The notes beneath the pieces are model-generated. The model was not told the DNA's origin, made no database searches, and worked only from the letters and a program-made list of their open reading frames with translations. A stretch of 64,000 bases of DNA, taken from Halomarina pelagica. GTDB taxonomy: Archaea > Halobacteriota > Halobacteria > Halobacteriales > Haloarculaceae. The stretch lies in assembly GCF_024228315.1 (NCBI RefSeq), contig NZ_CP100454.1, positions 744,001 through 808,000 of the forward strand, read 5' to 3'. How positions within the stretch are numbered: the stretch's first letter is position 1; each line of letters begins with the position of its first letter. Shown here piece by piece: positions 7,871 through 16,616 of this stretch. The position numbers were made by a program, and so were the translations under genes.

Positions 7871-7910
7871 GTCAGGTTTATGTGGCCGGGGACGTACGGA
7901 CTCGATAATG
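7871..7910 (+). promoter_or_regulatory. Promoter of the arginine cluster leader (leaderless)
   Basis: GGTTTATGTGG at 7875-7885 is a TATA-like box. The ATG of the 28-codon Arg-rich frame begins at 7908, 25-30 bases downstream, the standard spacing for a haloarchaeal transcript that starts on its first codon. No similar box occurs just before argG at 8070, so argG is probably transcribed through the leader. Confidence 0.6.
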
Positions 7911-7994
7911 ACACGGACCCGCCTCGGCGCTGGTGGCCCCTTCGCCAGCGGCGGGTGCCGACTCGTTCTCGTGCGACCGCGACCGGGCCGTTAG
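7908..7994 (+). CDS. Putative Arg-rich leader peptide (28 aa) upstream of argG
   Basis: Frame starting MTRTRLGAGG and ending RPRPGR, with 6 Arg in 28 residues; three of the six codons are CGA and four lie in the last eleven codons. It begins at the predicted leaderless transcription start (TATA-like box 7875-7885) and ends 75 bases before argG. The stop codon TAG (7992-7994) overlaps the small hairpin GGGCC (7985-7989) / GGCCC (7994-7998). An upstream GGCCC at 7935-7939 could pair with the same GGGCC instead, so two exclusive structures are possible. This is the layout of an amino-acid attenuator; its function here is inference. Confidence 0.5.
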   Translation: MTRTRLGAGGPFASGGCRLVLVRPRPGR

Positions 7995-8069
7995 GCCCTA
8001 CTCTACTCACCCCCACCGTCCCGGTCCGCACCGCTTTCGAACACGACACACGCACGAGATTCAACCACG

Positions 8070-9311
8070 ATGACACAGAAGACGGTCGCGCTCGCCTTCT
8101 CCGGCGGGCTCGACACCACGGTCTGCGTACCGCTGCTGAAAGAGGAGTACGGCTACGACGACGTGATCGGCGTCACGGTCGACGTCGGCCAACCCGAAGA
8201 GGAGTTCGACGAAGCCGAGGAGACGGCCGAGGCGCTCGACCTGGAGCACTACGTCGTCGACGCGACGGCGGCGTTCGCCGACCTCTGTCTCCGCTCGGTC
8301 CGCGCCAACGCCGACTACCAGGGCTACCCCCTCGGGACGGCCCTCGCGCGCCCGGTCATCGCCGAGGCGATCCTGGAGGTCGCGGAGGAGCAGGGCTGCG
8401 ACGCCGTCGCCCACGGCTGCACGGGGAAGGGCAACGACCAGCTCCGCTTCGAGGCGGTCTGGCGCGACTCCGACCTGGAGGTGATCGCGCCGGTGCGCGA
8501 ACTCGGCCTCACCCGCGAGTGGGAGATCGAGTACGCCGCCGGGAAGGACCTGCCCGTCGAGGGCGGCAACGAGGGCGCGTGGAGCATCGACACGAACCTC
8601 TGGAGTCGCTCGGTCGAGGGCGACGACCTGGAAGATCCGAGTTACGTCCCGCCGGAGGACATCTACGAGTGGACCGAGACGCCCGGGAGCGCCGACCCCG
8701 AACTCGTCGAGATCGGGTTCGAGGACGGCTACGCGCGCTCGCTGAACGGCGAGGAACTCGACTCGGTGGCCCTCATCGAGCAGCTCAACGACCTTGCCGG
8801 CGCGCACGGCGTCGGCCGCACCGACCTGATGGAAGATCGCATGCTCGGGCTGAAGGTGCGCGAGAACTACGAGCACCCGGCGGCAACGGCCCTGCTGACC
8901 GCCCACGAGGCGCTCGAGGGGCTCGTCCTGACGCAGGAGGAGCGCGCGTTCAAGGAGCGGGTGGACCAGGAGTGGGGCGAGAAGGCCTACCAGGGGTTGC
9001 TCGCCGCGCCGCTCGTGACCGCCCTCGACGGGTTCGTCGACGCGACCCAGAAGCGCGTGACGGGCACCGTCACCCTGAAGCTGGAGGGCGGGCAGTGTCG
9101 CGCCGTCGCCCGCGAGAGCGACTACGCGGTCTACTCCGAGTCGGCGGCCTCGTTCAACACCGAGACGGTCGACGGCATCGCGCAGGCCGACGCGACGGGC
9201 GTGGCGAAGTACCACGGCTTCCAGGCTCGCCTCGCCAACTCCATCCTGGAGGGGACGGCCGTCGAGGGTGCCGAGGAGGCGCTGCTGACCGACGGCGGCG
9301 ACGGGGACTGA
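8070..9311 (+). CDS. argG: Argininosuccinate synthase
   Basis: Condenses citrulline and aspartate with ATP to argininosuccinate, the penultimate step of arginine synthesis, in the cytosol. It has 413 residues. The ATP-pyrophosphatase loop is AFSGGLDTTV near residues 9-18. GCTGKGNDQLRFE and the SYVPPEDIYEWTETP segment are typical. It starts at ATG 8070 after a 75-base gap from the Arg-rich leader frame. argH follows after 4 bases, so the two are surely cotranscribed. Regulation by arginine supply through the leader is likely but unproven. Confidence 0.96.
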   Translation: MTQKTVALAFSGGLDTTVCVPLLKEEYGYDDVIGVTVDVGQPEEEFDEAEETAEALDLEHYVVDATAAFADLCLRSVRANADYQGYPLGTALARPVIAEAILEVAEEQGCDAVAHGCTGKGNDQLRFEAVWRDSDLEVIAPVRELGLTREWEIEYAAGKDLPVEGGNEGAWSIDTNLWSRSVEGDDLEDPSYVPPEDIYEWTETPGSADPELVEIGFEDGYARSLNGEELDSVALIEQLNDLAGAHGVGRTDLMEDRMLGLKVRENYEHPAATALLTAHEALEGLVLTQEERAFKERVDQEWGEKAYQGLLAAPLVTALDGFVDATQKRVTGTVTLKLEGGQCRAVARESDYAVYSESAASFNTETVDGIAQADATGVAKYHGFQARLANSILEGTAVEGAEEALLTDGGDGD

Positions 9312-14357: not shown

Positions 14358-15481
14358 CCGGATTCGTCTTCTCCGAGAAACCCATTCGCATCGCTCGCGG
14401 CGCGGGGCCCCACCTCTACGACGGGTCGGGCACGCGCTACCTCGACTTCGGCGCGTCCTACGCCGTGACGCCGACCGGCCACTGCCACCCGGACGTGGTG
14501 TCGGCCGCGACGGACCAGCTCGAGCGGCTGCTGTACGTCCAGGGGTCGTACCCGGTGGACGTGCGCGACGAGCTGTACGCGCGCCTCGCCGACTGCGCGC
14601 CGGGCGACCTCGATTACGCGTGGCTCTGCAACTCCGGCACCGAGGCCAACGAGGCGGCGCTGAAGTTCGCCCGCCACGCGACCGGCCGCTCGAAGATCGT
14701 CGCGACCACGGGGAGCTTCCACGGGCGCACGATGGGGTCGCTCGCCGCGACGTGGAAGGGGAAGTACAAGGCCGGATTCGAACCGCTCGCGGGCGACTTC
14801 GAGTTCGTCGAGTACGGCGACGCGGCGGCGGTGGCGGACGCGGTCGACGACGACACCGCCGCGGTCGTCCTCGAACCCGTCCAGGGCGAGGGCGGCGTCA
14901 ACCCCGCGCCCGACGGCTACCTGCGGGCGGTCCGGGAGGCCTGCGACGACCACGGCGCGGCGATGGTGCTCGACGAGATCCAGACCGGCCTCGGGCGCAC
15001 CGGGACGACGTGGGCCTGCGAGGCGCGCGACGTGGTGCCGGACGTGCTCACGACGGCGAAGGGCCTCGCCAGCGGCCTGCCCGTCGGTGCGACGCTCTGC
15101 CGCGAGTGGATCGCGACGGACGCGGGGGACCACGGCTCGACGTTCAGCGGCGGGCCCGTCGTCTGCGCGGCGGCCGTCGCCACGCTCGACGTGATCGAGG
15201 GCGAGGACCTCGCGGGGAACGCCGCCGCGATGGGCGACTACCTCACGGGCGAACTCGACGCCGCCGTGGGCGACGCCGTGCGCGACATCCGCGGCGAGGG
15301 CCTGATGCTGGGCGTCGAGGTGAAGCGCGGGGCGAACCGCCTGCTGCCGAAGCTGGCGATGGACCACCACGTGCTCGCGCTCCCGGCCGGGAGAACCGTC
15401 CTCCGACTGCTCCCGCCGCTGATCGTCGAGCGCGAGCACTGCGACGCGGTCGTGGACGCGATCGCGGAGGTGGTGGGATGA
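14354..15481 (+). CDS. argD: LysW-ornithine aminotransferase ArgD
   Basis: PLP-dependent class III aminotransferase that converts the LysW-linked semialdehyde to LysW-ornithine using glutamate. It has 375 residues, normal for ArgD/LysJ. The PLP lysine is K236 in LTTAKGLASG; other motifs are LCNSGTEANEAALKFAR, GSFHGRTMGSL and LDEIQTGLGRTG. The start is ATG 14354, overlapping the argB stop. argE begins 61 bases after its stop. The final Gly codon is followed directly by TGA. Confidence 0.94.
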   Translation: MTGFVFSEKPIRIARGAGPHLYDGSGTRYLDFGASYAVTPTGHCHPDVVSAATDQLERLLYVQGSYPVDVRDELYARLADCAPGDLDYAWLCNSGTEANEAALKFARHATGRSKIVATTGSFHGRTMGSLAATWKGKYKAGFEPLAGDFEFVEYGDAAAVADAVDDDTAAVVLEPVQGEGGVNPAPDGYLRAVREACDDHGAAMVLDEIQTGLGRTGTTWACEARDVVPDVLTTAKGLASGLPVGATLCREWIATDAGDHGSTFSGGPVVCAAAVATLDVIEGEDLAGNAAAMGDYLTGELDAAVGDAVRDIRGEGLMLGVEVKRGANRLLPKLAMDHHVLALPAGRTVLRLLPPLIVEREHCDAVVDAIAEVVG

Positions 15482-15542
15482 GGACGAACCCGTCGGTAGC
15501 GACGGACTCGCCCGCCCCCGTTCGCCGCCGGAGGTGGTTCGC

Positions 15543-16616
15543 GTGAGCGCGAGCGAGTCCGTGAGCGTCGGTCGGCAGGAGGCGCGCGACCTGCTCCGGA
15601 CGCTCGTCGCCACGCCGTCCGTGAGCGGTAACGAGCGCGCCTGCGCCGATCACCTCGTCGCCTTCTTCGAGCGCCACGGCCGGGAGGCGTGGACCGACGA
15701 GGTCGGCAACGTCCACGCGCCGGCGGACGACAGCGCGCTCCTCACGTCGCACATCGACACGGTCCCCGGCGAGATCCCCGTCGAGATCGCCCCCGGCGAG
15801 GAGCGCGGCGAACCCTCTCTCTGGGGTCGCGGGAGCGTGGACGCGAAGGGCCCGCTCGCGGCGATGGCGGTCGCGGCGGTCCGCGAGGGCGTGAGCTTCG
15901 TCGGCGTCGTGGAGGAGGAGCGCGAGTCGGCGGGCGCTCGCCACCTCATCGAGTCGGGCCGTGAGGAACCGGGCGCGGTGGTGAACGGCGAACCCTCCGG
16001 CTGGAACGGCATCACGCTCGGCTACCGCGGCCTGCTCTCGGGGACGTACGTCGCCACGAGCGAGTCGGGGCACTCCTCGCGCCCGGAGAACAACGCCATC
16101 CAGGACGCCTTCGACTGGTGGGGGCGCGTCACCGACGCCTTCGCCGAGGACGAGTGGACGCCCGTCTTCGAGCGCGTCACCCCCAAGCCCGTCGCCGTCG
16201 AGGGGGGCGTCAGCGACGACGGCCTCTCCGTGGAGGCGACGATGGAGGTGCAGTTCCGCGTCCCGCCCGCGTACTCCGTGGAGGAGGTGCGCGAGCGCGC
16301 CGACGGCGAGTTGAACGGCGGCACCGTCCGCTGGCACGACTTCGTCCCGCCGGTGATGATGAGCCCCCGGACGGAGGTCGCCCGCGCCTTCCGGGTCGCG
16401 ATCCGGGATCACGACGGCGACCCCCGCCTGCTGCGCAAGACCGGAACGAGCGACATGAACCTCTTCGCGCGGGTCTGGGACTGCCCTATGGTCACCTACG
16501 GCCCCGGGAACTCCGATCTCGATCACGCGCCGAACGAGCACCTCCCGCTCGCGGAGTTCGACCGCTCCGTCGAGGTGCTCTCCGACGTGGCGGCGACGCT
16601 CCGGGGTGGGTCGTGA
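15543..16616 (+). CDS. argE: LysW-ornithine hydrolase ArgE/LysK
   Basis: M20-family zinc peptidase that releases ornithine from LysW. It has 357 residues. Metal-site motifs are LLTSHIDTVPGE (His/Asp), GRGSVDAKGPLAAMA, and VGVVEEERESAGA with the catalytic Glu pair. The C-terminal GTSDMNLFARVWDCPMVTYGPG stretch is typical of LysK. GTG 15543 is chosen over the in-frame GTG at 15534 because GGAGGTG (15530-15536) is six bases before it, the same arrangement as at argB. The stop overlaps argF by one base (TGATG). Confidence 0.92.
   Translation: MSASESVSVGRQEARDLLRTLVATPSVSGNERACADHLVAFFERHGREAWTDEVGNVHAPADDSALLTSHIDTVPGEIPVEIAPGEERGEPSLWGRGSVDAKGPLAAMAVAAVREGVSFVGVVEEERESAGARHLIESGREEPGAVVNGEPSGWNGITLGYRGLLSGTYVATSESGHSSRPENNAIQDAFDWWGRVTDAFAEDEWTPVFERVTPKPVAVEGGVSDDGLSVEATMEVQFRVPPAYSVEEVRERADGELNGGTVRWHDFVPPVMMSPRTEVARAFRVAIRDHDGDPRLLRKTGTSDMNLFARVWDCPMVTYGPGNSDLDHAPNEHLPLAEFDRSVEVLSDVAATLRGGS

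Follow-up and report, generated by a model that had tools for sequence, protein, structure and literature searches.

Upstream of argG, the first gene of the arginine cluster, genomes from many families of Halobacteriales carry a short reading frame that closes with Arg codons and a stop codon held in a GC hairpin. This element is quite probably a ribosome-mediated attenuator, which would tie argG, and hence the arg cluster, to the supply of charged tRNA-Arg. What the computation shows is the reading frame and its choice of codons, the hairpins and the G-free tract, the place and spread of the element, and the parallel leaders at ilvB and valS. The initial annotation of the Halomarina pelagica sequence had proposed an arginine attenuator at this place; the conserved frame, the biased Arg codons, the hairpin over the stop codon and the ilvB and valS parallels bear this reading out, and the upstream antiterminator that formed part of it is not supported.

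The leader upstream of argG

In the window, the whole 64,000-nucleotide stretch of H. pelagica DNA that was analysed, the leader occupies the interval between a TATA-like box and argG (Table 1), and the cluster continues in the order argG, argH, lysW-like, argX, argC, argB. The features first described here hold on re-examination: six Arg codons in the frame, four of them within the last eleven codons; a TATA-like box at leaderless distance, a spacing that is conserved elsewhere; a stop codon overlapping a GGGCC/GGCCC hairpin; a further GGCCC at 7935-7939; and an argG start 75 bp past the leader stop. The frame is expected to be leaderless. Its Arg codons are, in order, CGG, CGC, CGA, CGA, CGA and CGT, and the codon CGA, used three times in the leader, is absent from the window's argG, argH and argX, which together have 78 Arg codons.

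Table 1. Features of the argG leader region in the H. pelagica window
Feature	Coordinates	Strand	Remarks
TATA-like box TTTATG	7877-7882	+	leader promoter; 31 bp 5' of leader ATG
Leader ORF, 28 codons, MTRTRLGAGGPFASGGCRLVLVRPRPGR and stop	7908-7994	+	ATG 7908-7910, TAG 7992-7994
Hairpin I (CGGACCCGCC... / ...GGCGGGTGCCG)	7914-7960	+	within leader; covariation, chimera test
Putative regulatory codons CGA CCG CGA (Arg23, Arg25)	7974-7982	+	immediately 5' of hairpin II
Hairpin II GGGCC-GTTA-GGCCC, putative terminator	7985-7998	+	encloses stop codon
G-free, pyrimidine-rich tract TACTCTACTCACCCCCACC	7999-8017	+	G counts after hairpin, 146 leaders
Remaining untranslated spacer up to argG	8018-8069	+	without second TATA box in H. 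pelagica
argG, argininosuccinate synthase	8070-9311	+	first arg cluster gene

A scoring scan of both strands of the window returns six comparable leader-like matches elsewhere, so the combination is too common in a lone window to convince, and a comparative test is needed. The sister species Halomarina halobia has a nearly identical leader upstream of an argG that is 94% identical (L149). Separately, an Arg-rich short frame, MRTNPSVATDSPAPVRRRRWFA, lies where two genes of the arg cluster meet (15478-15546); no conserved hairpin is seen there, and the frame is probably a chance occurrence.

Homologues of argG are present in 143 of the 146 genomes of the order. Upstream regions were read at 144 loci and at 80 named loci, with 223 regions entering detection, and the resulting locus counts represent non-independent events. 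A leader, comprising a short frame, terminal Arg codons and a stop codon in a GC hairpin, is detected in 202 of the 223 regions; four of the 202 picks are wrong and a few undetected regions show a leader by eye, which places the overall figure at about 200 of 223. The Arg-rich frame is kept upstream of argG in other Halobacteriales, the comparison that had been proposed as a check. Examples, each followed by its stop codon, are MATRSTCATFAPLRAAAVRPRRRAL in Haloferax, MTGTRGSGTFAVAGSRGSALVLVPRRRPGRP in Halorussus and MTQSAGLATAFASFVTGGAVSPRPRRPRPGL in Natrialba. The Haloferax leader is that of H. sulfurifontis and H. denitrificans, and a like one would be expected in H. volcanii. Clear absences are second argG copies and seven regions belonging to f2, f9 and f11, all deep families; the detector had falsely picked one of the seven. 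In most of these seven regions, the promoter lies directly at argG.

Dinucleotide shuffles of 146 regions (five each) score within the range of real leaders in 0.3-4% of cases, in a comparison for which the leader set is preselected; it is conservation, rather than rarity in a single window, that decides that the leader is real. When the genomes are searched with a sequence model, each yields a single strong site, the argG leader. Within the window's own genome no further Arg leader copy is convincing, the next match having an E value of 0.03. Weak model matches in other genomes fall mostly inside genes and were discarded; one among them is an argG leader, and another pointed to ilvB.

Codons, frame and hairpins

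The anatomy of the leader was described from 146 argG leaders that are at most 85% alike. Their median length is 30 codons, the TATA core precedes the ATG by 29-35 bp, most often by 31, as would be expected of a leaderless transcript, and an untranslated spacer of 68-190 nt separates leader and argG. The Arg codons cluster two to five codons 5' of hairpin II, where 62-92% of leaders carry them, with the maximum of 92% two codons before the hairpin. In this tail 78% of the Arg codons end in A (CGA or other). The figure is 4% for the remaining fourfold codons of the tail, 21% for Arg codons nearer the start of the frame and 2% for those in argG coding sequences. Arg density reaches 39% in the leader frame versus 19% and 8% in the other two frames.

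Hairpin II can fall in any of the three phases of the leader frame, so that the last residues vary (PGx, RAF, RGR, RPAL) and the codon is conserved, not the peptide; outside the Arg run the peptide shows no conservation. This bears on nascent-peptide arrest, in which an Arg-rich C-terminus would bind free arginine in the tunnel and stall the ribosome. C-termini of the form RRRPGxx are frequent, as such a mechanism would have it, but with residues that follow the hairpin phase, a constraint that falls on the CGA codon and other cognate codons at ilvB and valS, we consider it very unlikely. The fungal arginine attenuator peptide, a conserved peptide with arginine-dependent ribosome arrest, likewise belongs to a frame upstream of an arginine gene, whereas the haloarchaeal leader conserves codons and not an arrest peptide.

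Gaps come in multiples of three in 51 of 83 cases (61%) in the leader, compared with 2 of 37 (5%) in the spacer, as counted in strict alignments of close, non-independent pairs with a single gap. Substitutions in the leader have no codon-position bias, as expected if the peptide is mostly functionless. The conserved frame, the TATA-to-ATG spacing and the frame-keeping indels point to a translated short frame, and the Arg position, the CGA bias and the ilvB and valS parallels place cognate codons beside the hairpin, as in an attenuator. The surroundings of the hairpin are the best conserved part, which could also mark a DNA or RNA site bound by a protein, with incidental coding and no translated leader. 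That reading is the least probable of those weighed here, since it leaves aside both the indels and promoter spacing and the strictness with which codons match the gene that follows across three gene families.

Both hairpins covary. Native halves fold better than cross-genome chimeras for hairpin II (p 2e-13, kinship ignored) and for hairpin I (p 2e-11, kinship ignored), the latter possibly acting as a pause hairpin. Arm variants of hairpin II include GGGGTC/GACCCC, GGCCC/GGGCC and GACCCC/GGGGTC. RNAalifold returns no consensus structure on a mixed leader alignment because subgroups differ by one column in the position of the arms, and the chimera test was used instead. Hairpin II is short, with 5-7 bp and no U-tract behind it. 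G makes up 0-5% at every one of the 17 positions that follow it and about 20-33% beyond them (146 leaders).

In the initial annotation, the GGCCC at 7935-7939 was to capture the GGGCC at 7985-7989 when the ribosome stalls, as in a classical three-segment attenuator. The complementary pentamers are indeed present in the window. Over the 146 leaders, however, upstream pairing with the hairpin II arm stays at shuffle level (mean z +0.15, with 3% of leaders below -1.5), the pentamer is lost in H. halobia, where it reads GGCTC, and in the window it sits inside hairpin I. With no upstream segment competing for the hairpin arm, the proposed antiterminator is unsupported, and we give a three-segment switch very little probability. 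The stretch of Arg codons shows a modest tendency to pair with the spacer downstream (mean z -0.92), which is clear only in some families, including that of the window. Rfam covariance models for T-boxes and other leader elements give no match at the gathering threshold or at E values up to 5.

Parallel leaders at ilvB and valS

Expressed as a DNA pattern, hairpin and G-free tract match 47 times in 146 genomes, with one match in the reversed control, and a second hairpin pattern matches 23 times in 59 genomes, again with one in the reversed control. All matches of both patterns precede argG, ilvB or valS, and nothing else. At ilvB, 26 of 30 loci (L312-L341) have a leader, mostly ending in ...IIVG.. 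with the codons ATT ATT GTA, and the hairpin TGTAGGGGC/GCCCCTACA lies over the stop codon. The window's own genome has such an ilvB leader outside the window, MTRGAHVGSHPAASGAFDSILAIIVGAA and stop (L320/L406). Within ilvB genes, GTA makes up 0.5% of the Val codons and ATT 5% of the Ile codons. Leaders of archaeal-type valS (L308, L309, L310, L410-L412, L414, L418, L419, L421, L423, L462-L475) contain GTA as Val codon and have ends such as ...TVFVG..; none is found in family f4, and bacterial-type valS has no leader upstream.

The evidence for the argG, ilvB and valS leaders is all comparative. The matching of a rare cognate codon to the downstream gene in three families is the strongest single argument for tRNA sensing. 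The three probably make up a haloarchaeal attenuator class, at argG, ilvB and archaeal-type valS, in which the ribosome would stall at rare cognate codons (CGA, ATT/GTA and GTA, respectively) abutting the stop-codon hairpin and block it directly with no antiterminator, possibly with an FttA terminator. A related ilvB form may exist outside the order, in Archaeoglobaceae-like genomes.

In family f21, which is Archaeoglobaceae-like and lies outside the order, short frames rich in Ile, Val and Leu end 15-33 bp before ilvB (L424, L425, L426, L437, L438, L443, L446), with codon runs such as GTA GTA GTA and ATT ATT GTA GTA. At L446 a textbook terminator, AAAGGC-GTTCT-GCCTTTTTT, comes after the stop codon of the frame. 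The upstream regions of trpC contain no leader; trpC genes (L373, L384, L389, L393, L399) have in common a conserved stretch resembling GCAAGCCTTATGTACA that surrounds the TATA box and is likely a regulator site.

Proposed mechanism and known attenuators

What we infer from the sequence comparisons is that the ribosome stalls at the leader and transcription terminates there, and in which direction arginine supply acts. The conserved frame, the Arg codons, the hairpin, the single site per genome and the cognate parallels fit Arg-tRNA sensing by stalling. The transcript would begin at or beside the leader ATG, with a ribosome trailing RNA polymerase through the 28 codons. When arginine is plentiful, the ribosome would pass the CGA codons, finish translation at the stop codon, which lies in the hairpin loop, and leave; hairpin II would then fold with the polymerase on the G-free tract, and transcription would stop before argG. 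When charged tRNA-Arg (UCG) is scarce, the ribosome would halt 4-15 nt short of hairpin II, with a CGA codon in its A site. The 5' arm would then lie under the leading edge of the ribosome, hairpin II would not form and the polymerase would enter argG, a separate antiterminator being unnecessary. A ribosome footprint reaches about 12 nt downstream, and the last regulatory codon begins 4-6 nt 5' of hairpin II, so the 5' arm would be covered. The data are better explained by a stalled ribosome that blocks the hairpin directly than by an upstream antiterminator.

A terminating ribosome, too, covers the hairpin, and the switch must therefore depend on the timing of release. In Haloferax volcanii, RNA polymerase co-isolates ribosomal proteins (PMC8576121), and one hairpin terminates 59% of transcripts in vivo (PMC7237163). 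The intergenic terminators of this species have a T stretch (PMC7237163), which hairpin II, itself short, lacks, and this weakens the case for intrinsic termination.

The chief competing version of ribosome control assigns termination to aCPSF1/FttA, with the leader ribosome controlling factor-dependent premature termination before argG. Once the ribosome leaves, naked C/U-rich, G-poor RNA would let FttA load or cut and terminate transcription, whereas a ribosome stalled on CGA near the polymerase would exclude FttA; the chief role of the hairpin would be to pause the polymerase or to mark the site. That a coupled ribosome keeps FttA away has been put forward in the literature (PMC8116511; PMC11616081). 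The conserved G-free C/U-rich tract in place of a U-tract and the length of the untranslated spacer agree with this version, but a conserved, covarying hairpin over the stop codon points to a direct structural role, and we hold factor-dependent termination to be a possible but clearly less probable course than direct block of hairpin II.

With the bacterial trp, his and leu attenuators the leader shares a short frame, cognate codons near its end, a terminator-like hairpin and a biosynthetic operon, and the hairpin inside the haloarchaeal leader resembles their 1:2 pause hairpin. It differs in having no conserved antiterminator, in a stop codon inside the terminator-like hairpin, in a G-free C/U tract that replaces the U-tract and in a leaderless-type archaeal frame. 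Since the comparison lends no support to a mutually exclusive antiterminator, the argG leader is not a member of the trp type; it would work like a bacterial attenuator outside that type. The pyrBI attenuator of Escherichia coli works without an antiterminator, its terminator hairpin being blocked by the ribosome itself, and it senses UTP via polymerase pausing. The block of the hairpin by the ribosome is shared, while the signal proposed for the argG leader is charged tRNA. The closest layout found is that of actinobacterial ilvB leaders, in which runs of Ile, Val and Leu codons overlap a candidate terminator hairpin with no obvious antiterminator (PMC1262725). Those leaders differ in being bacterial and followed by poly-U, and no Arg or argG version is reported there; codon changes in Streptomyces coelicolor were without effect, as cited in the same work (PMC1262725).

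No earlier report of an archaeal amino-acid attenuator was found in the open-access literature, a body that leaves most subscription journals outside. According to a 2021 study, archaea had no known mechanism of transcription attenuation or antitermination (PMC8448881), and another of that year, on H. volcanii, describes archaeal transcription-translation coupling as nearly uncharted (PMC8576121). As a conserved element open to genetics in Haloferax and its relatives, the leader would provide direct evidence of a leading archaeal ribosome controlling RNA polymerase. It would also serve as a native assay of whether hairpin or FttA is the haloarchaeal terminator, and overlooked short leaderless frames would gain an assigned function.

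A second promoter accompanies part of the argG leaders. In 82 of 190 leader-bearing argG genes (about 43%; examples are L022, L037, L060 and L109), though not in the window's species, a second strong TATA box lies 30-36 bp before the ATG of argG itself. This suggests two promoters at such genes, one of which would bypass the leader and with it the attenuator.
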